Part shown: positions 182 to 31,488 of the stretch, in pieces
How positions within the stretch are numbered: position 1 is the stretch's first letter
Layout of the letters: the number at the start of each line of letters is the position of its first letter
Origin: Ordospora colligata OC4
Taxonomy: Eukaryota > Microsporidia > Ordosporidae
Direction: 5' to 3'
Assembly (NCBI RefSeq): GCF_000803265.1
Contig: NW_014575396.1
Location: forward strand, 124,001-188,000
DNA: 64,000 bases
Translations under genes and position numbers: made by a program
Notes under the pieces: model-generated
Databases searched by the model: none
The model's input: the letters and a program-made list of their open reading frames with translations, nothing else
Told to the model about the DNA's origin: nothing

Positions 182-1945
182 TTAGAAGTTTCCTTGTACT
201 ATCTCATTTGCGGTGTTAATTGCACAATCTCGAGTACTCAGCTTGCTCATAATCGCAGAAAGTGCATTTGAAGAACTTTCAAGAATAGTTGCATTTCCAT
301 TGTCAACCACACAAACCTTGTTGAAAAACGAAAGAAGCTCAAGGTTGTGAACAATTGCTATTACAGTCATGCTGCTACATGAATTCATTATCGTGCGAAT
401 AATGCTCTTCTCTGCCTCTTTGTCAAGACTCGATGTTGGCTCGTCCATCACAAGCACCTCGGGATTCTTCAGAAGCGCCCTCAGGATCGCAATCTTCTGC
501 CTCTCTCCTCCGCTGATATGCTTTCCTGATTCCCCAACATTCGTAAAATATCCCTTCTCAAGCCTCATTATACTGTCATGCACATTAAACCTCTTTGCAA
601 GCTCAACAACTGAATAATCAGATACACTAGGACATCCATACTTGATATTGTACATCACTGTCTCATTGAAAAGCAGCGAGTTCTGTGGAACATATCCCAT
701 CATCCTTCTGAATGCCCTTTCCTCTATAGCCTTAGTGTCGATCTCATCAACAAGTATAGCTCCTTGCATGCTATTCAGTTTCAGCAGCGCTTTGAGTATC
801 GTCGACTTTCCTGATCCATTGGACCCAATAACTGCAACACGATCTCCTTTCATGATCTGTAGATTCACTCCATTAAGCACCCGCTTGTCTTTGTAATAAC
901 AACTAACATCCTTGAACATAATGCCTGTCTTGAGTTTTGCCAAGCATAGTCCAACTCCTCCCTTTGACTCTCCATCTTCAAAAACAACTTCCTTAATGCT
1001 CAGCATTGCCTCTGAAAGCCTGCAATATGTGTATCCAAGATTACTTAGACTGCCTAGCAGCATTCTGCTCATAGTCACATAGAAAAGCAGCACTCCCTTA
1101 TCCATCTTACCCCACAGAACCCCATATGCTCCAAGAGCTATCACAGACGAGTTCATAAATGCAAATATCAGTTTCTGGAGCATATTCAACAGATAAAGCC
1201 CTCTAAACAACGCTGTCCCATGCCTCTCAATATCTATCAGCTTTCGGTCATATCTGCTTACCTCCACATCATAGCCATCAAAAGACACCACGGATTCATG
1301 GTTACTCAGTGTATCATGCATAAGATTTGATGCACTATTCTCTGCTTTGTTCAGCATCCTTCGGACCTTGTTTCTAGACAATGCTATCGATATCGTCACC
1401 ATCGCATACAGCACCACTGCAAACGCAACTATCATAAATGCAATCACTCCAAGATTCGAATACAAAGAGTACCAGATAAGAATAATAGACACAGACATCG
1501 GCAGGATATTCTGCACAAACACCTCCACAAGATCACTCACCGCTCTGCTCTTTCTACCAACAATGTTCTGTATCGTTCCTGTTCCATAGCCTTCAAAATC
1601 CTCTGTTTCCAAGCGTATGAAATGCTCAAACGTTGTCCGGAGAGTATTCCTATACACACTCTGCATAGTGCCTGCAAAAAATAATCCCTGCAACTCACTG
1701 AACATTATGTCCATCAGTGAAATTGCAAGAAATATAGCAATGCTTCTGTATGGGACAGAATCGTTGTCCAAGCCGTCTGAAATCCTCGTAATGCTCCCTG
1801 CAAGCCGAGTCTCAAAATACTTCCCCACACATATGCTTAGAACCACAGGAAACAGAATCACTCTCACCTGAGGCACTACAAACACATATCTTCCTAGAAT
1901 CCATCCAATCGTTTGGTATTCGCCAATCCTCTTCTTCATGCTCAT
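182..1945 (-). CDS. ATM1: Half ABC transporter of the Atm1 (mitochondrial/mitosomal) type
   Basis: This 587-residue protein has one membrane domain followed by one ATP-binding domain. The N-terminal 330 residues carry several hydrophobic segments. The ATPase part shows a Walker A (GSNGSGKST), a signature (ISGGERQKIAILRAL) and a Walker B (VLVMDEPTSSLD). This order is that of the ABCB half transporters that work as homodimers. In microsporidia such Atm1-like proteins are thought to export an iron-sulfur precursor from the mitosome; that role is inferred from the family. No targeting sequence is obvious, which is usual for mitosomal proteins. Two ATG codons lie close together at the start (residues 1 and 3); the first follows a GGCC context. 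Microsporidia often have several Atm1 paralogues, so the location is less sure than the fold. Confidence 0.85.
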   Translation of the reverse strand: MSMKKRIGEYQTIGWILGRYVFVVPQVRVILFPVVLSICVGKYFETRLAGSITRISDGLDNDSVPYRSIAIFLAISLMDIMFSELQGLFFAGTMQSVYRNTLRTTFEHFIRLETEDFEGYGTGTIQNIVGRKSRAVSDLVEVFVQNILPMSVSIILIWYSLYSNLGVIAFMIVAFAVVLYAMVTISIALSRNKVRRMLNKAENSASNLMHDTLSNHESVVSFDGYDVEVSRYDRKLIDIERHGTALFRGLYLLNMLQKLIFAFMNSSVIALGAYGVLWGKMDKGVLLFYVTMSRMLLGSLSNLGYTYCRLSEAMLSIKEVVFEDGESKGGVGLCLAKLKTGIMFKDVSCYYKDKRVLNGVNLQIMKGDRVAVIGSNGSGKSTILKALLKLNSMQGAILVDEIDTKAIEERAFRRMMGYVPQNSLLFNETVMYNIKYGCPSVSDYSVVELAKRFNVHDSIMRLEKGYFTNVGESGKHISGGERQKIAILRALLKNPEVLVMDEPTSSLDKEAEKSIIRTIMNSCSSMTVIAIVHNLELLSFFNKVCVVDNGNATILESSSNALSAIMSKLSTRDCAINTANEIVQGNF

Positions 1946-6678: not shown

Positions 6679-6750
6679 GCATTGATAGTATAGTGGTTAT
6701 TATGTGAGCTTCCCAAGTTCATGGCCTGGGTTCGATTCCCGGTCAATGCA
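6679..6750 (+). tRNA. tRNA-Gly, anticodon CCC
   Basis: The 72-base sequence folds as a cloverleaf. The acceptor stem is GCATTGA with TCAATGC and an A discriminator. The anticodon stem is TGAGC with GTTCA around the loop TTCCCAA, giving anticodon CCC (glycine GGG). The T arm is CTGGG, loop TTCGATT, then CCCGG. The A box (TAGTATAGTGG) and B box (GGTTCGATTCC) of a polymerase III promoter are present. There is no intron and no encoded CCA. A shift of the loop by one base would give TCC, but that would put C at position 37 and a poorer stem. Confidence 0.93.
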
Positions 6751-13388: not shown

Positions 13389-14501
13389 TCATACTCCTAC
13401 GCTAGTTAAAACACCCAAAGGAGATACAGGTTGCAGCATATTTAACTCATTTCCAAACATGCCGGCATTCATTGCCACACTGCTGCCTTCAACACTGTTC
13501 TTCATATCATCTACCACAGATTGGATTGGATTGACTGTTATTGCATCTGTATCATCTGTTGGCTTTGAACTGCCTGATTCTTTAATTATTGCCTCATTCT
13601 TATCTTCTACTACATCAACTACCTTAGTATTATTTGCACTGGATGTATCTGCAATACCAACATTATTTACAGCTATCTCCTGCAAGTTATTTGCATTTAC
13701 TGCTGCATTTGCTGTATCTACTGTTTCATCATTTTTGGTTGCAATACTCAGATCAACAGGAGTATTTGAATCACTAGTTACTGATTGTTTTGGATCTGAT
13801 GCAATTCCAGTGGCATTACTACCAAACAGCTCTCCTATAAGTTTTTCGAAATTCTCGTCACTCGGTGCTCCACTCTTATTTTCAGGTTTGATATTTGTAG
13901 AAATGCTTTCAAATTCTTTGATCAATGCATTTGGAACTGCATCTTCTCGTTTGTGCTGCTCAGTGCTTGGGTGTGAGACATATCTGTCAGACCTATCAAA
14001 CATCCCAAATACATCTTCTCTGTTTCCATTGAAATTGTTCGTTCGATTCGATGATGCGGGTTTTGTATGATATGACCCACTGGAGTGATAAGGATGATAT
14101 TCAGATGTATTCCCAGAATACATGGAAAGGCTTTCATGTGCACTCATCGGCATAGTAGTAGTGTCTCTTGAGAATCTAATATCTCTGAGTATATCGAGTG
14201 TTCTGTCGAGCTTTCTGTTGACAGCATTCACTCTTTCCTTGATGAATTCGAGTTTGTCGGTGCTTGAAAGGCTCATGAATCTGCCTGATGTGGTCTTTTC
14301 ACCGAATAAAGACATCCTACCCTTTGCAACAAGGCCAGATGGCTTCAGTGTGCTCTTGCTAGGCGTAGCAATATCTATCACAAGCAGGACCAGCACAATT
14401 CCCACAGTCATTGATCCAAGAAGAAATGCAGTTCTCTGACTCTTCATATTTACACTGGATTTGTTCATGCGTTTTATACCGAACCTGACACAGTGTTTCA
14501 T
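13389..14501 (-). CDS. Predicted single-pass (type II) membrane protein, unknown function
   Basis: The 370-residue product has a basic N-terminus and one hydrophobic segment (FLLGSMTVGIVLVLLVIDIA, about residues 27-46), so it probably spans a membrane once with a long lumenal or outer tail. A short helical region follows (about 80-110, LEFIKERVNAVNRKLDRTLD). The rest is disordered and rich in Ser, Asn, Thr and Asp. Possible starts are at 14501, 14468 and 14447; none has a clear CCC. It is divergent from the ferredoxin reductase, 40 bases away. I do not recognise a family. Confidence 0.7.
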   Translation of the reverse strand: MKHCVRFGIKRMNKSSVNMKSQRTAFLLGSMTVGIVLVLLVIDIATPSKSTLKPSGLVAKGRMSLFGEKTTSGRFMSLSSTDKLEFIKERVNAVNRKLDRTLDILRDIRFSRDTTTMPMSAHESLSMYSGNTSEYHPYHSSGSYHTKPASSNRTNNFNGNREDVFGMFDRSDRYVSHPSTEQHKREDAVPNALIKEFESISTNIKPENKSGAPSDENFEKLIGELFGSNATGIASDPKQSVTSDSNTPVDLSIATKNDETVDTANAAVNANNLQEIAVNNVGIADTSSANNTKVVDVVEDKNEAIIKESGSSKPTDDTDAITVNPIQSVVDDMKNSVEGSSVAMNAGMFGNELNMLQPVSPLGVLTSVGV

Positions 14502-16236: not shown

Positions 16237-17031
16237 TTATTTTACACTTTTGCCTGAGCCAATACTAGGCGCAATCAATTTATTCATTTGCCTCATCAAA
16301 TCCTCAGGCGTCATTCTTTCAAAAACATGATTGGCTTCATCATCCTGCTCATCTGAAAAGCCATATTCAGGATCGCTGTAATCTTTACACAATGTATGAC
16401 TCGTATTGTCAATCACATCATCGCATTTAGACATCTTTTTCTTCTTGATTGTGTCTTCATTTGTGAGAACTTCCTGGTTAAGTGCCCATCTACCTCCTTT
16501 TCCTCGTGCACCAGGATCTCTAGGAACCTTCTTGAAGCATTTGTTCAGTGACAAATTGTGCCTGATCGAGTTTTTCCACACAGGATTTGCATACTTGTAA
16601 TACTCAAAAGAATTCTCAATCCATTGATATATCTCATTCAGCGTAAGCTTACCATGTTCACTAGTTAATATTGCCTGTGTTATTATTTGTGCATAAGAAA
16701 ATGATGGTTTTATTCGTACATCGATCTTTATACCATTCATATCGTTCATCTCATGTTGTTCATTACGTATCTTATTCTCATTTGCACATGTCTCGCTCTT
16801 TCCTTCATAGAAGTGTCTTGGGTCAATACACATATCTGGACTGATTGGCCTTTTAATATTATTCATGCATCGCATATAAACTCTGCATATCTCGTCATCA
16901 TCGCATGCATCCATTAGGCACGAAAGCTCAAACAAACCTGTTCCTTTGCACTCATGATGCTCATAAATCGCACATTCCATATCACTCATCACATCTTTAC
17001 CAAAATCTTCTTCCACACACTCCAATATCAT
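16237..17031 (-). CDS. Forkhead transcription factor
   Basis: The 264-residue protein holds one forkhead DNA-binding domain at about residues 108-190, with [49 protein letters not shown] and GKGGRWAL. The recognition helix [13 protein letters not shown] is intact. The N-terminal 100 residues are acidic and cysteine-containing without a recognised domain (no FHA domain seen). It probably acts in nucleus as a cell-cycle or stage-specific regulator, as Fkh/Hcm1 do in yeast; that role is inferred. Confidence 0.9.
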
Positions 17032-17391
17032 CCTCAGATCTGCTACTCAATCCAAATATATAATATTTTTTTATTTATTAAAATTACACTAATTCAAATT
17101 TCACACATATCTTGTGATATCTCTCAATTTCACATATATTTACTAAACACATCAAAACACCATTAAAATCCCAATACTTTATTGAATATTGCCATGATAA
17201 GCACAGCCTAACAATTCTAATAAACTGTCGTCTTCATTCATCTTACTATTTCGATTTGCATAATCGCTTCTACTCATTAGATATTACTAGCAATGCTTTT
17301 TAAATATGGATATATTCAGAGCACAGATTGATTAATCATGAACCGGATGTTCATGATGTTCTGATTTATTTGTATCTGCCATATCTGCCAT
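17032..17391. other. 360-base AT-rich gap
   Basis: The gap separates the forkhead gene from the giant ABCG gene, both on the minus strand. It holds runs of A/T and no recognisable RNA gene. Next to the ABCG stop, an in-frame stretch of 19 codons (17391-17332) starting with ATG GCA GAT ATG GCA GAT and ending in TAA is open; see findings. Confidence 0.45.
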
Positions 17392-20300
17392 CTAGGCAAG
17401 ATAATTCAGAATATTTTTTTGACCAGATTTGCTTCCCGGTGTTTTATTAGCAATGACACTCATAGGCATTTTCTTTTCATTTATCTCTTCATTTATCTTT
17501 TCAGTCATTTTATCCAATTCTGTTTTAAAGCCTTTCACCATAAACTCATAATACACACGTAAATACCATGTATTAACCCTTTCATTTTGCTTGTTCGAAA
17601 TATATTCCACACACATGCCAATTACATCATTAAGCTCTTTGCTATTAAATAATTTATCAATATTTTGATTCTTCCCGGCAGCTTTTAAAAGCGTGTCTAG
17701 AGTCTGGTAGGCATTGGACATACTTTTCATAAAAGAGCTTGCTTTTGCAAGCTTACCACCACTTTCATACTTATTTATATAATCAATTATATTAATTACA
17801 TTCTTATCAAAAAAGTTCTTGCTCAACATCAAATCAAACAGCTCTTTGTGTCGAGGATCCATAGCTTCATAAAGTTTTCGCGTACCACCTGTTTTTTGTT
17901 GCATTTCCCGCTGTTTTTGCGGATTAATAATCTGAGAAAATTCAACAATTGATCGCAAACACTTGTCAATTCCACTACTACGTATATGCTCATTAGATAA
18001 ATGCTCATTAGATATAAACTTATATAGTTCATCAACCAACTTCGTATATGATTCACCAAAATTGTTTCTATTAGCAAAATATTTACTATGCGAGAAATCA
18101 TATCCTCCTGCTTTAAATACTCCTTTCAGCCCACATATTCCTCCTATCTGTTCAAAAGCATCTGCATAATACTCATTATAGTTTGATGACTTCTCATCAA
18201 TATAATCATTAATCTGACTCGTGCTAGCTTCCTTCTTTCCTGTCTTACTTAAAATCATCGATTGAACCACAAAGTAAGGCATTTGCTCAAAAAGCTCATT
18301 CTCAGCATTTATAAGTGCGTTAAGAAATATATTTGAATAAACATCTTGATTAATTGCAACAAGAGAATCTCCATCAATTATATTTTTGTAAAATACACGC
18401 CCTTCTTGTAGATTTGATTTTATCACTTCTGTTATTTTATCATATTCATCTCCATCATTATTTTCAAGTATTTGTTTCACTGCGCTTTGTATTTTTTTAT
18501 CATATGGTTTCTCCTCATTGATCTTTTCTCTGATTATTTCAAATATCTTTTCATTACCAATCATTTCTTCTTCTTTAATATACTCTTCAACGTTTTTAAA
18601 ATTTATTCCATTATTATTAAACTCGTTTTTCAAGTTTTCATTTTTCTCCTTTCTTATTTCTTCATCAAGTATCATGAGTATGGCTTCTATAGTGGGGTTC
18701 TTTATTAAATTACATCTTTTGTTAAATTGATTAATTATACTAGTAGTCAATAATCCACCGCGTCTAAAACGACTTAAACCCGCCTCTATATTCTTCACGT
18801 TTTCTTTAATTTCTTCAAGTACGGATTTAATATTTTTTTCTTGTTCTGCCTTCTTTGATTTAACGGAATTGACATTATTATGCATGTTTATCTCTGTCTG
18901 AATTATACCTAATAACAAATTTTTCTCCTTCTCATTATTAAATCCATTTAAACTATTATATTTATCTTGATTAAGTTCAATTTCTTCATTACTTTTAAAG
19001 TTTATTATATCATTGTTATGAATATCATTAAATATTTTTTCGTTAATACTGTTATTATTTGATTTTGACTGTTTTTTGATCCTATTAATTATTGTATGCT
19101 TTATAATGTCTAATTTAATTTTATTAAGTGTAATTTCTCCTGCCTTTCTTCTTTCTTCCTTGATTTGCTCTTCAACCTCACACTCTATTATCTCATTACT
19201 GATTTCTTTAGCAATTCCTTCACACGAATTATTATGAACTTTTAATTGACATCCAATCTTTTCTACTGCTATGTCAATCATCCTTTGCTTTTTAAACATT
19301 TTTTTAGCATGATTAATCATATCTTCAGTATACCCATCCTGGCTCCTGATTATATCAAATATTTCTTCCATATCACGTGTTCCTTTAAACATCATCAAGC
19401 AAATAAATATCTTATCTTTATGATGCAAATACAAATCATCAATACTCAGAATCCTTTTGATTTCTTTTTCTAGATCAATCTTCATTATTCTATTTTCCTT
19501 CATTTCATCCTTGCATCTCGACATATTCTTTTCAATAGCTTTGAAAGTTAATTCATCCATGCCCTTCATTAAAGAACAATCCTGTCTAATCTCACTAATA
19601 ATTTCATCAACAACCTTATATTCTTTTTTCCTTTCCTTAAGTTCGTTCAAGAGATTGTGGTTTAATTTCTTTCCAAGCTTATGTTTATACTCATCTATAA
19701 ACGGTTCTATTTGGAGGTCCGCATTATATAAAAAGGTTTCAAAAGTCGGATCATCTATCCCATTATTACTTTCTGTTTTTTGCCATTGCATACCATTATT
19801 TTCTTTCAGAACCTTAATATTAGCTTTAAAATAGTCCCTTGCTTCAATCGATTTCCATCGATAATCATTTGTATCCTTAAGATTTTCATTCTGCTCCCTA
19901 CTATCGATCTTGGCATTCATAATTTGAAGTATTGATTTTTCAAAATTCTTCACTTCCTTTATCTGTTCTTGGTTTGTACTATTGATGTTTGTTATTGCCG
20001 CGTTCTGTTCTTCAGTTGCTTCTTTGTTTTCTGATATGTGATTATTAATAATCTTGGTAATCAGATCAGGATTAACCTTAGATGTTATTACTGCTATATC
20101 CTTCAAGTTGTTAATAATTATTTTCTTAGTTTCATCATGTATGTACTTCTTGACATTACTGTCATTTCCATTCGAAATCTTATTCATGCAAAGAATAATA
20201 ACCATGCTTACCACTACAAAAAGCACCAATATAAATGAAACGCTTGCAAACAATGGCCCTGAGCGTGAAAACCAAGATTTCGTACTTTCCTTGATTTCAT

Positions 20301-22776
20301 TTTCCTGTTCTTCTTGGTTTTCATCAATTTCATTTTCATTTTCATCGTCCTTTTCTCCTTGATTTTGCTGTTCTTCTCCACCTTTTCTTTTCTCTTCAAT
20401 TACCTGCTTCTTACCATCATTCCCGGCGATTTCAATTCTTTGGTTGTGCGTGCAATCATTCAACAGATTTCGTATTATAAAACACGTCGATACGCACAAA
20501 AACCCAATCATAAACACCGCAAATCCAAATGCAGAGAAAAACGCATATCCCAGCGACCTTATATTTGGATGAATCGTCCCATAAATAGTTCCGGAATTTT
20601 TTACAACTACATCTTGGATTTCAGCAGGCAGTAAACTATACTTTGCATAGTTCAGAAACGTGTTGATAGGCGTCAAAAACATCCAAACCCATCGCAATAT
20701 TTGCAGTAACCACGATGGCAAAAAACCAAAACCTGTAAAAAACGTACATCGTAGTGGCGGTATCAAATTGGGAATCGACATCGTCTCTCCACTTACATCC
20801 ACTATGTTGTCATCTCCAGTAGCTATCCTGCCCAGCCAACTCTTAAAAGTAAGCTTTAAAATATTTCCGGCGGTTTCTTTTGGAAAGATTTGAGCTATAT
20901 CCATAAACTTCTTAAGTAAACCAGATAGTATTGGTCCAACAATTCCTTCAAAAAATGCTATAAAGGCTATGCAGAAAAATACTATTTTTCCTATCGTAGC
21001 CATAGCACCAGGAGACCCTCCTTCTAGGTTAAGCGTAGTACATAAAAACAGCAACTGATGAAAAGTCAGCATCACCCATCCATATATCCATCCAAAAAAC
21101 TTAAGGTACTCCAATACACTAAACTCTATCGACGTTTTCTTAGTGCATATCACAACCATAGAAAATATAACTATGGTTATAAACAATCCCATCGTACATG
21201 CATGGAAAAGCAGCATCGATAGATAAGTGTTCACAGGGCTTGACCTCCTTATCTTTCCATCCCTTGAAATGTACCTAAGCATCTGCTTAATATACAAATA
21301 CACCCCAATCGACATCAGCGCGAACAATACCATCATGTTGGTCGCTTTAGTAAATCCAATCAACATGCGCAAACCCTTTGGCTCAATGCCCATTATAATG
21401 CCTTCAGTAGATACTGTATGTATGCCCATAAATGTATCTGTAAATTTCTGTTCAGGGGTTGTTTTTGTCATTATCATTTCAATCCCATTTACATACTTCA
21501 CTTTCTGCTTAAACATTGCATATGTAATGATTATCGTCCCCAAAACAAACAAAGAAGTAAGAAACATCCTTTGAATGACGCCCGCTTTACTCAAATACAC
21601 CTTTATTCCAGTCACAATGTTGTTCCATACTTGTGATATACTGGGCTTCATGTCACAATCGTAATCTTTCACTCCAATCACTGTATTATACTCTTCTGCT
21701 CTTTCAATCGCTCTTTTCCTCTTGGCCTTAATTAATCTTCCAATCACTTCCTTCTGTCTTTGTAGATCTTCATTCTTATAATGCGATACCTCCTTAGACG
21801 TAATCGATGCAATAAAGTCAGGCATAGAAATCCCGCTTTTACATATTTCATCAGTATACGCAATCCTAACTGGATTGTCATTCCTTTCTCCTCTTTCAAT
21901 TGCTTCCTGCTCCTGTAGCTCCATGGCTTCTTTGTCAAGACATTCAAAAAGGCTGTTTCCATACAATCCTCCATATACCGTAACTCCCTCAGCCATAATA
22001 AAAATATTATGAAATTCCTTACACATCGAATCCGACGGCTGATGTATCGATATCACCACCCCTATGTTGTGCTTCTCTGCATAATTCTTAATCGCTTTGA
22101 TAATATTAGGCGCAGTATTTGCATCCAATCCCGTAGTAGGCTCGTCAAAGAATGTATACGCTGCCCTTCGCACAAGCACTTCTGCAATCCTGATCCTTTG
22201 CCGCTGTCCTCCAGACAGTTTCCTAAGAGGACGATTTGTAAATTCTCTCATATTAAATGTATTGATTATGTCTTCTACAATCTCCTCATCTGTCATTCCA
22301 TTCCGCTTCTCATCTGTCATACTCTTAGCAACAGTGAATTGGATAAACTCTCGTCCTGTCAGCTCAGATAGCAACTCCAGATCATCATGCTGAGGCATAT
22401 ATGCAATATCCAGCGCATGATCCAGTTTATGCTTCTTCTTTCCATTAAATCTTACTTCACCATACGTGCTTATACTATAATCACACATGCATCCTGCCAT
22501 GGTCATCATCGTAGTCTTTCCACTTCCACTGGGTCCTAGTATTGCATTCACTTCCCCACGTTTCACAAACATATGCCCATCAAGAAGATGCGCTGGCTTC
22601 TTTCGATCCCTTGCATATGAATTCTTGATCTCATAAGTCTCATCAATACGTTCCATCTCGATCGCCACCGTATCATCCATTCTGTCAGATCCTTCAATAT
22701 GTCCATCTAGTTCTTCATCTTCTAATCCATCTATATTTTGATTTTTAACATTTGTAACAACACTCGTCTGTATCAT
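17392..22776 (-). CDS. ABCG (White-type) transporter with a ~925-residue extra C-terminal region
   Basis: This single frame encodes 1794 residues. The first 270 hold an ABCG-type ATPase: Walker A GPSGSGKTT (81-89), signature LSGGQRQRIRIAEVL (187-201), Walker B/D-loop TFFDEPTTGLD (208-218). Residues about 420-770 contain six hydrophobic segments, as in White-family half transporters, which normally end there (about 600-700 residues). Here an acidic, Glu/Gln/Lys-rich linker (about 775-838) leads to a seventh hydrophobic segment (FASVSFILVLFVVVSMVIIL) and then some 925 hydrophilic, Asn/Lys/Glu/Ile-rich, largely helical residues of no recognised family. If the first six helices keep the family topology, the extra part lies on the non-cytosolic side. 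The ATG follows CCCC seven bases upstream. The substrate is unknown. Confidence 0.88.
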   Translation of the reverse strand: MIQTSVVTNVKNQNIDGLEDEELDGHIEGSDRMDDTVAIEMERIDETYEIKNSYARDRKKPAHLLDGHMFVKRGEVNAILGPSGSGKTTMMTMAGCMCDYSISTYGEVRFNGKKKHKLDHALDIAYMPQHDDLELLSELTGREFIQFTVAKSMTDEKRNGMTDEEIVEDIINTFNMREFTNRPLRKLSGGQRQRIRIAEVLVRRAAYTFFDEPTTGLDANTAPNIIKAIKNYAEKHNIGVVISIHQPSDSMCKEFHNIFIMAEGVTVYGGLYGNSLFECLDKEAMELQEQEAIERGERNDNPVRIAYTDEICKSGISMPDFIASITSKEVSHYKNEDLQRQKEVIGRLIKAKRKRAIERAEEYNTVIGVKDYDCDMKPSISQVWNNIVTGIKVYLSKAGVIQRMFLTSLFVLGTIIITYAMFKQKVKYVNGIEMIMTKTTPEQKFTDTFMGIHTVSTEGIIMGIEPKGLRMLIGFTKATNMMVLFALMSIGVYLYIKQMLRYISRDGKIRRSSPVNTYLSMLLFHACTMGLFITIVIFSMVVICTKKTSIEFSVLEYLKFFGWIYGWVMLTFHQLLFLCTTLNLEGGSPGAMATIGKIVFFCIAFIAFFEGIVGPILSGLLKKFMDIAQIFPKETAGNILKLTFKSWLGRIATGDDNIVDVSGETMSIPNLIPPLRCTFFTGFGFLPSWLLQILRWVWMFLTPINTFLNYAKYSLLPAEIQDVVVKNSGTIYGTIHPNIRSLGYAFFSAFGFAVFMIGFLCVSTCFIIRNLLNDCTHNQRIEIAGNDGKKQVIEEKRKGGEEQQNQGEKDDENENEIDENQEEQENEIKESTKSWFSRSGPLFASVSFILVLFVVVSMVIILCMNKISNGNDSNVKKYIHDETKKIIINNLKDIAVITSKVNPDLITKIINNHISENKEATEEQNAAITNINSTNQEQIKEVKNFEKSILQIMNAKIDSREQNENLKDTNDYRWKSIEARDYFKANIKVLKENNGMQWQKTESNNGIDDPTFETFLYNADLQIEPFIDEYKHKLGKKLNHNLLNELKERKKEYKVVDEIISEIRQDCSLMKGMDELTFKAIEKNMSRCKDEMKENRIMKIDLEKEIKRILSIDDLYLHHKDKIFICLMMFKGTRDMEEIFDIIRSQDGYTEDMINHAKKMFKKQRMIDIAVEKIGCQLKVHNNSCEGIAKEISNEIIECEVEEQIKEERRKAGEITLNKIKLDIIKHTIINRIKKQSKSNNNSINEKIFNDIHNNDIINFKSNEEIELNQDKYNSLNGFNNEKEKNLLLGIIQTEINMHNNVNSVKSKKAEQEKNIKSVLEEIKENVKNIEAGLSRFRRGGLLTTSIINQFNKRCNLIKNPTIEAILMILDEEIRKEKNENLKNEFNNNGINFKNVEEYIKEEEMIGNEKIFEIIREKINEEKPYDKKIQSAVKQILENNDGDEYDKITEVIKSNLQEGRVFYKNIIDGDSLVAINQDVYSNIFLNALINAENELFEQMPYFVVQSMILSKTGKKEASTSQINDYIDEKSSNYNEYYADAFEQIGGICGLKGVFKAGGYDFSHSKYFANRNNFGESYTKLVDELYKFISNEHLSNEHIRSSGIDKCLRSIVEFSQIINPQKQREMQQKTGGTRKLYEAMDPRHKELFDLMLSKNFFDKNVINIIDYINKYESGGKLAKASSFMKSMSNAYQTLDTLLKAAGKNQNIDKLFNSKELNDVIGMCVEYISNKQNERVNTWYLRVYYEFMVKGFKTELDKMTEKINEEINEKKMPMSVIANKTPGSKSGQKNILNYLA

Positions 22777-23529: not shown

Positions 23530-23640
23530 AAAAATAATCTTGCATAATAAAATAGTTATCTAAATAATAAAGTAATCATTTACATAATAAAATAATCTTG
23601 CATAGTAAAGTAATCATTTGCATAATTCTTAAATTTATTT
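23530..23640. repeat. Degenerate tandem repeat, unit about 24 bases (ATAATAAARTAATCWTTTGCAT)
   Basis: After the eIF4E gene come about four imperfect copies of a unit made of CATAATAAA(A/G)TAATC or ATAATAAA(A/G)TAGTTATCT with small changes. The unit differs from those in other gaps of this window. No coding or RNA signal is seen. Confidence 0.6.
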
Positions 23641-30015: not shown

Positions 30016-30360
30016 ATGGAAATCATACCATCAGACCGGTTTTGCAGAGAATGCAACAACCTGCTCTATCCAAAAGAAGACTCTCAGGAAAACACACTTC
30101 TGATGGCATGCAAAAACTGCGAGCACATCCAGGAAACAAAATCGCACTGTCTTTATTCAAAAAGCTTCAGGACTAAGCACAAAGCAATGGAAGTTTATGC
30201 AAAGGATCTGCTGCAAGATCCAACACTCCCACAGGTCAAGATCGATTGTGCAAAGTGTGGCTTCAACAAGGGAATCTACTTCCAATCAAGAGACGATGAA
30301 GACGACGTTGCATTAAGTATTTTTTATCTCTGCTGCAAGTGCAATCATTTGTGGACATGA
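30016..30360 (+). CDS. RPB9: RNA polymerase II subunit RPB9
   Basis: The 114-residue protein has two zinc ribbons. The first uses CRECNNLLYPKED (Cys10, Cys13) and CKNC (Cys32, Cys35). The second uses CAKC (Cys78, Cys81) and CCKC near the end (Cys106, Cys109), followed by NHLW. Yeast Rpb9 has 122 residues, so it is complete. It supports start-site choice, elongation and proofreading in RNA polymerase II. The ATG follows CCCC by three bases. Its last 16 bases overlap the end of the gene on the opposite strand. Confidence 0.92.
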   Translation: MEIIPSDRFCRECNNLLYPKEDSQENTLLMACKNCEHIQETKSHCLYSKSFRTKHKAMEVYAKDLLQDPTLPQVKIDCAKCGFNKGIYFQSRDDEDDVALSIFYLCCKCNHLWT

Positions 30361-31265
30361 TCTGCCTCACTGGCACTGCATGATGTATGCCAGGAATCCA
30401 ACGCATCATCACTATCTGAACACATGTCAATAAAGCACTTTTCGAATGCATTACTGTTTCTACTCTTTATATGCTTATTTTTATGATCTACATTCATGCC
30501 AAGTGTATGATTATGCTCTATATTTATGTCAATTGTATGATTATGCTCTACATTCGTATTCACCATATATTCATGCGCCATGCCTTCCATTCCACATTCA
30601 ATACCTTCATGCACTTGTTCATTCATATCAATTATATCATCATCTACATATGCATATTCCTTAATGTTGACCAACTCACATTGTGCATCCGCTCTAGAAT
30701 GCCGATGATTTATCAACAGTAAGCATCTTTCGCATTGCTCTCCACAGAAGTCATCGTTTGATCTAGTCATCGTCGCTATCTCATCAAGCCCATGTACTGC
30801 TGCTCTATGGATATATAACTCCTCAGTTCTGAATGGCAAATAAATCCATGAAAGATGTAGGCTTCTCAGCTGTTCTGAACTATTCGTATCTGTAGGCTCT
30901 CCCCACACATCACATTCTCCTCCACAGTATGTAAACTCTCGAATAAATGCAAAAAACATCTTTCTCTCACTGCAATACTCATACCAGAACATATCCACAG
31001 TCACATAACATCCTTTCACATCCTCAATCCTACAGGCTACATCCTTGTTAAACTCTTCAACTGCTTCGTAGCTTAGTACTGCTGCAATAAAATGTTTTGC
31101 ATCAGAAATGCATACGCTAATCGATCCATCACTTCGCTTTTCATACACGTCAATCATCTGTGCATTGAATGACATGCGTTGCTTCACAGACACAGGTCCT
31201 GTCCATCCTCGAAGCTGCTCGCCAATGCTCTTCTCTATCCAGGGATCCCTGAGGAACACAGCCAT
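30345..31265 (-). CDS. TPP1/Tpz1-like OB-fold protein (possible telomere protein)
   Basis: The N-terminal 125 residues of this 306-residue protein resemble the OB fold of shelterin TPP1 (ACD). LRDPWIEKSIGEQ (residues 5-17) matches the LRPWIRELILGSE start of human TPP1. SVCISDAKHFIAAVLSYEAV (50-69) matches its LLVSDGTHSVRCLVTREAL, and a later strand pair with MFFAFIREFTYCGGECDVWG matches the end of the fold. The C-terminal half is acidic, with an imperfect repeat (VEHNHT, IEHNHT, VDHKN; about residues 235-265). TPP1 recruits telomerase through this domain; the function here is inferred. The ATG at 31265 has CCC two bases upstream. The gene overlaps RPB9 tail to tail by 16 bases. Confidence 0.55.
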   Translation of the reverse strand: MAVFLRDPWIEKSIGEQLRGWTGPVSVKQRMSFNAQMIDVYEKRSDGSISVCISDAKHFIAAVLSYEAVEEFNKDVACRIEDVKGCYVTVDMFWYEYCSERKMFFAFIREFTYCGGECDVWGEPTDTNSSEQLRSLHLSWIYLPFRTEELYIHRAAVHGLDEIATMTRSNDDFCGEQCERCLLLINHRHSRADAQCELVNIKEYAYVDDDIIDMNEQVHEGIECGMEGMAHEYMVNTNVEHNHTIDINIEHNHTLGMNVDHKNKHIKSRNSNAFEKCFIDMCSDSDDALDSWHTSCSASEADHVHK

Positions 31266-31488
31266 CCGGGATCTTCTCAATCCATAATTTTCATCGCACT
31301 GCTTTTCACCTCATCAACATATCAGCACCTCATAAATACATACTTCAAATCAACAACATCATAAATATCATCAACCTTTAAAACACTCTTATCAATATAT
31401 ACTTCAAAGATTTTTATTCAATTGCATCAAATAACACTCGTCCTTCTCACACTGTTAGGTGCATCTTCTCGCTGCATCAGATATTTTT

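Follow-up and report, generated by a model that had tools for sequence, protein, structure and literature searches.

The locus and its reading frame

Ordospora colligata is a microsporidian of Daphnia; few known genomes are as reduced as those of microsporidia. In the window analyzed here, a stretch of 64,000 nucleotides from O. colligata OC4, one minus-strand gene codes for an ABCG-type ATPase and a membrane domain, followed in the same frame by an acidic linker, a further hydrophobic helix, and a long hydrophilic tail (Table 1). An earlier note on this DNA had given the coordinates 17392-20260, which correspond to the further helix and the tail (~residues 840-1794). The parts it had described beyond the transporter, namely an acidic linker, a seventh hydrophobic helix at about 843-868, and some 925 hydrophilic residues, were all found.

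Table 1. Features of the fused gene, with positions in the window and in the protein
Feature	Residues	Window position	Strand	Description
Whole fused gene	1-1794	17392-22776	minus	1794 aa from ATG, open frame
CCCC just upstream of start codon		22781-22784	minus	sequence inspection
ABCG-type nucleotide-binding domain (NBD)	49-286	21919-22632	minus	PF00005 (E 9.2e-21), TIGR00955
Membrane domain	395-780	20437-21594	minus	six hydrophobic segments at a hydropathy cut-off of 1.3
Acidic linker	781-841	20254-20436	minus	24.6% Glu, without Met
Further hydrophobic helix	846-864	20185-20241	minus	mean hydropathy 3.18, strongest segment of the protein
Tail	869-1794 (926 aa)	17392-20172	minus	hydrophilic, rich in K/E/N/I, mostly helical as predicted with very low confidence, no known family
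Tail part aligned with P0002	1120-1748	17533-19419	minus	holds all 8 tail differences (1199-1612)

The frame of 1794 codons, which the note had called uninterrupted, is indeed free of stops. A record from a second O. colligata assembly, P0001, is also 1794 residues long and aligns without gaps, with 1785 of the 1794 residues identical (99.5%). Neither a frameshift nor a separate start, two outcomes that the note had set against its own reading, is present in that assembly. Also, there is no Met within residues 756-858, which leaves a free-standing tail gene without a start codon ahead of the further helix. The presence of two separate genes in O. colligata was rejected on these grounds. At the base composition of the tail, 926 codons would stay open by chance with a probability of ~10^-41, and each of the tail's five alternative frames carries from 29 to 178 stops; a chance origin of the open tail frame is excluded. 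Codon usage is not decisive. When four frames were scored, the true frame was best in the last part of the tail and narrowly best in the first part, but was outscored by another frame across the linker and the middle of the tail, so the coding status of the tail rests on protein conservation, as seen in its relative P0002 (described below). The CCCC just ahead of the start codon resembles the short C-run signal that precedes microsporidian starts. Taken as a whole, the transporter and the tail almost certainly form one continuous fusion protein. The fusion was seen in O. colligata alone, with P0001 the sole match in a search for full-length fused relatives.

The gene sits in the middle of its contig, and nine of the ten neighboring open reading frames (ORFs) that were scanned match Pfam families, including forkhead, TRAPP, eIF4E, NOT1, L15e, and Fip1; the fused gene is flanked by those for eIF4E and forkhead. 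This position and these neighbors mean that the locus is not one of a subtelomeric family. Several other features of the window are of separate interest. The product of a minus-strand ORF at 13389-14501 (370 aa) has a single hydrophobic stretch close to the N-terminus, and its long hydrophilic part is rich in Ser and Asn by eye; it has no Pfam match and is possibly another surface protein. A second minus-strand ORF, at 30345-31280, matches the TPP1 shelterin domain (5.5e-8) and is of interest with regard to how telomeres are protected in a reduced genome. A 20-base unit is repeated in tandem, in 4.4 copies, at 23540-23626, between the eIF4E-like and NOT1-like genes, and a tRNA at 6679-6750 on the plus strand is the sole Rfam match in the window at gathering scores.

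The transporter portion and its relatives

The ATPase is readily placed. It carries a Walker A motif at residue 81, the signature SGGQRQR at 188, DEPTTGLD at 211, and IHQP at 244. The top NCBIfam model for it is TIGR00955 ("pigment precursor permease," E 6.2e-38), at a score of 130.8 bits that is below this model's whole-protein cut-off of 736; the pleiotropic drug resistance (PDR) model comes next. Among the best 60 of 460 matches in a sequence search of the Protein Data Bank (PDB), Cdr1 and the pleiotropic yeast pump (7p03) come at the top, followed by ABCG1, ABCG5, and ABCG2. The NBD is N-terminal to the hydrophobic segments, which begin at residue 404.

The membrane domain is harder to recognize. 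At the chosen cut-off, hydropathy gives six segments, at 404-422, 478-496, 526-544, 564-582, 598-616, and 750-768, of which the fourth is weak (mean 1.38) and lost when the cut-off is raised to 1.4. A Pfam search did not find PF01061 here, and a profile comparison of the membrane domain alone with an ABCG alignment gave no match. A structure model of residues 1-881, built on 12 alignment rows (8 of them taken from a list of 120 proteins), is fair in the ATPase, where ten-residue blocks between 121 and 300 reach 66-88 pLDDT, and poor in the membrane part. When this model was used in a fold search of the PDB, the first 28 among the best 50 matches were ABCG chains, with query-length TM-scores of 0.22-0.28; since the membrane part is poorly modeled, these matches mainly confirm the ATPase. 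By its sequence the ATPase is clearly ABCG/White-like, and the membrane domain appears too divergent for recognition. The earlier note's White-type half-transporter, with six helices ending near residue 770, therefore stands for the ATPase (PF00005 and TIGR00955); its membrane domain has the six segments by hydropathy, without PF01061 and with a low-confidence model.

For comparison, the three best-scoring other ABCG-like places in the genome (L002, L003, and L004) were examined. Their proteins have lengths of 670, 647, and 617 aa (for L004, counted from an inferred start), and they stop 13, 25, and 20 residues past the last hydrophobic segment. It is customary, although not defining, for an ABCG chain to end soon after the sixth helix. 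The contrast that the note had drawn with such proteins holds within this genome: all three paralogues end within 13-25 residues, and the fused protein continues for 1021 residues beyond residue 773. PF01061 is present in one of the three paralogues, and the fused gene is thus not alone in having a divergent membrane domain. The paralogue frame of L004 (205-1312, plus strand) runs ~369 codons upstream opposite an ORF of 394 aa, and this extension is probably an antisense shadow.

The fused protein can be compared with two known groups of transporters. With the ABCG/White half-transporters (TIGR00955; ABCG1, ABCG2, and ABCG5/8), it shares the NBD ahead of the membrane domain and the signature, DEPTTGLD, and IHQP motifs; it differs in the absence of PF01061 and in the added linker, further helix, and 926-residue tail. 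The fungal PDR full-size transporters (Cdr1 and Pdr5; TIGR00956) give the best PDB sequence matches to the NBD. However, PDR proteins contain the NBD and the transmembrane domain twice, and the protein described here has one NBD and a second half without a match to any transporter family. In published work on microsporidian transporters, Trachipleistophora hominis is reported to keep only the ABCB and ABCG groups, with a similar repertoire in other microsporidia, and trees of ABC proteins show lineage-specific duplications (PMC3486916). PF00005 is listed in all of the microsporidian species compared in one study (PMC12449221), and a review describes protist ABCG proteins that move lipids, one of them apparently an importer (PMC4010794).

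Relatives and variation of the tail

The tail was called an unknown domain in the earlier note, and this was borne out by the searches. Nothing significant was found in Pfam (best E 0.11 for the tail alone and 0.042 in that region when the whole protein was searched), no NCBIfam model matches it at 0.01, and the best PDB match by sequence, at an E of 0.81, is not significant. Among the best candidates scored for a second copy in the O. colligata genome, only one place matched at an E of up to 1, and no second copy was found. A BLASTP self-comparison gave no match off the diagonal, and thus no internal repeats, in either the tail or P0002. Relatives in viral contigs and in bacterial or archaeal genomes were sought with two peptide patterns each, and none was confirmed among the 190 and 589 pattern matches. 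The tail has 143 Lys and Arg, 150 Asp and Glu, and 10 Cys. A structure model built from 2 sequences is mostly helical, but its mean pLDDT of 37.8 makes it unusable. The GC content falls from 0.417 in the ATPase to 0.380 in the membrane domain and 0.295 in the tail. In steps of 1 kb, the stretch 17001-20000, which covers the tail, is the minimum of the window (0.28-0.31), and the other steps lie at 0.34-0.48.

One relative was found. Among 7997 scored candidates (those sharing most words with the tail), only P0002, a protein of 872 aa from a JGI source, proved to be related. Its gene model starts opposite tail residue 1120 and has no transporter. The note had set close relatives with the two parts in separate genes against its reading; P0002 may represent either such a gene or a truncated gene model. 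It could be a protein of O. pajunii, which has a JGI-annotated genome (PMC11237803). The identity is 44% over P0002 residues 2-198 and 34-36% further on (31-44% across the matched pieces), and from residue 1120 onward 229 of 586 aligned residues are identical. Nothing in P0002 matches the first 250 residues of the tail.

The two O. colligata records differ at nine residues: 633, 1199, 1338, 1362, 1499, 1529, 1547, 1548, and 1612. Eight of the nine are in the tail (Fisher p = 0.039, two-sided simulation 0.040), in a comparison of small numbers. Three of them, at 1529, 1547, and 1548, sit in a block with 53% identity to P0002. Relaxed constraint would yield the same pattern of tail differences.

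This variation is of interest in light of a population study from 2023 of ten O. colligata samples, which ranks the diversity of an "ABC-like lipid transport protein" within the top 1%, gives it the fourth-highest piN/piS, and interprets it as a nutrient transporter (PMC9997559). The published gene, locus M896_121220 on chromosome 12, is very likely the fused gene. The name of P0001 is exactly the published one, and the chromosome also fits. The tag 1220 would correspond to approximately the 122nd gene. By ORF counts at varying length cut-offs, arbitrarily corrected for genes truncated at piece ends, ~92 to 106 genes precede the fused gene when contig C12 is counted from its low end and, by rough extrapolation, ~75 when it is counted from the other end, so the tag fits the low end only loosely. 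The other ABC proteins seen on C12 are RLI and an ABCB-type exporter (window 182-1945). The latter has a further match to the lipid exporter MsbA, and the published name might in principle refer to it instead. The nine differing sites suggest that the published variation sits in the tail. The public name covers the transporter portion only, and no description of the tail was found in the available portions of the literature on the gene.

One could consider the tail a weakly constrained passenger, left when the loss of a stop codon merged the transporter gene with the gene of a neighboring single-pass membrane protein, and now drifting with little function. The tail's GC and GC3 are under those of the transporter, and its composition is heavy in K, E, N, and I. 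In the alignment with P0002, ~285 of the 872 residues of P0002 are unaligned (the longest stretches span 98, 61, and 52 columns), and some blocks are down to 23-30% identity; the concentration of differences between the two records in the tail would also be expected of such drift. However, identity reaches 45-55% in the blocks around 1120-1239 and 1480-1599, and 926 codons have stayed open in both records. On balance, a drifting passenger is somewhat unlikely.

Topology and possible role of the tail

The side of the membrane on which the tail lies depends on the count of helices. The ABCG membrane domain has six helices, with both termini in the cytosol; with cytosolic ends of this kind, a seventh span would place the tail outside. 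By helix counting and the topology of the family, it is reasonably probable that the tail is outside the cytosol. The count itself rests on hydropathy, since the membrane domain is unrecognized by Pfam and profile comparison and the model is of low confidence. The further helix is preceded by 2 positive and no negative charges and followed by 3 positive charges and 1 negative, which leaves its direction undecided.

If one of the seven segments were not a true span, or if one had been missed, the tail would instead be cytosolic and could act as a helical scaffold or regulator beside the ATPase. The weakness of segment 564-582 and the poor model of the membrane domain leave room for this, as does the error rate of the method: in two of five controls the hydropathy count gave seven segments instead of six, with one extra in the membrane part of L003 and one in the ATPase of L002, and the count was six in L004, P0053, and P0054. 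The 10 Cys and the mixed charge of the tail suit the cytosol as well as the outside. On the other hand, 846-864 is the most hydrophobic segment of the protein, and the six segments ahead of it match the number in the ABCG family; a cytosolic tail is unlikely. Far less plausible still is that the two parts are normally separate genes, as P0002, which lacks a transporter, might suggest, and that the fusion is an error of assembly or annotation, given the equal frame and length in two records, the 1794 codons without a stop, and the lack of a Met ahead of the further helix.

The reading put forward here, tentatively and with close to an even chance of being right in full, is that of a divergent ABCG half-transporter to which an anchor and a probably helical domain of ~926 residues were added in the Ordospora lineage, the domain being probably extracytosolic and fast-changing. 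In this scheme, a White-type half-transporter would have gained the membrane anchor and the domain within one polypeptide. The ATPase, identified by homology, would power an exporter or flippase that works as a dimer in a membrane of the parasite, as in the rest of the family. The further helix would recross the membrane and bring the tail out of the cytosol, either onto the surface of the parasite or into the lumen of an organelle, and a dimer would carry two tails flanking the exit of the pump. The tail would then most likely be a surface domain that binds a component of the host or vacuole or receives the exported lipid. That it engages host or vacuole material is possible, if somewhat doubtful. 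The location of the variation hints at quick change of the tail, which may come about via host-driven selection or via low constraint, and a tail facing the vacuole or host would fit its faster change. A more speculative extension, and quite an improbable one, is that the tail is a polymorphic surface ectodomain on a lipid pump and serves, on the side of the parasite, as one partner of the resistance loci of Daphnia magna that decide O. colligata infection, with the published selection signal stemming from this ectodomain.

The architecture is real, well bounded, and present in two O. colligata records; it is new in detail, in a transporter of a known type. Since microsporidian genomes are so reduced, a transporter extension of 2.8 kb that is kept open in two assemblies calls for an explanation. 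Should the variation lie in an exposed tail, the gene would be a candidate for contact with the host, in a host-parasite system that is already well studied. The main value of the finding is that an existing selection signal may belong to an unrecognized ectodomain.
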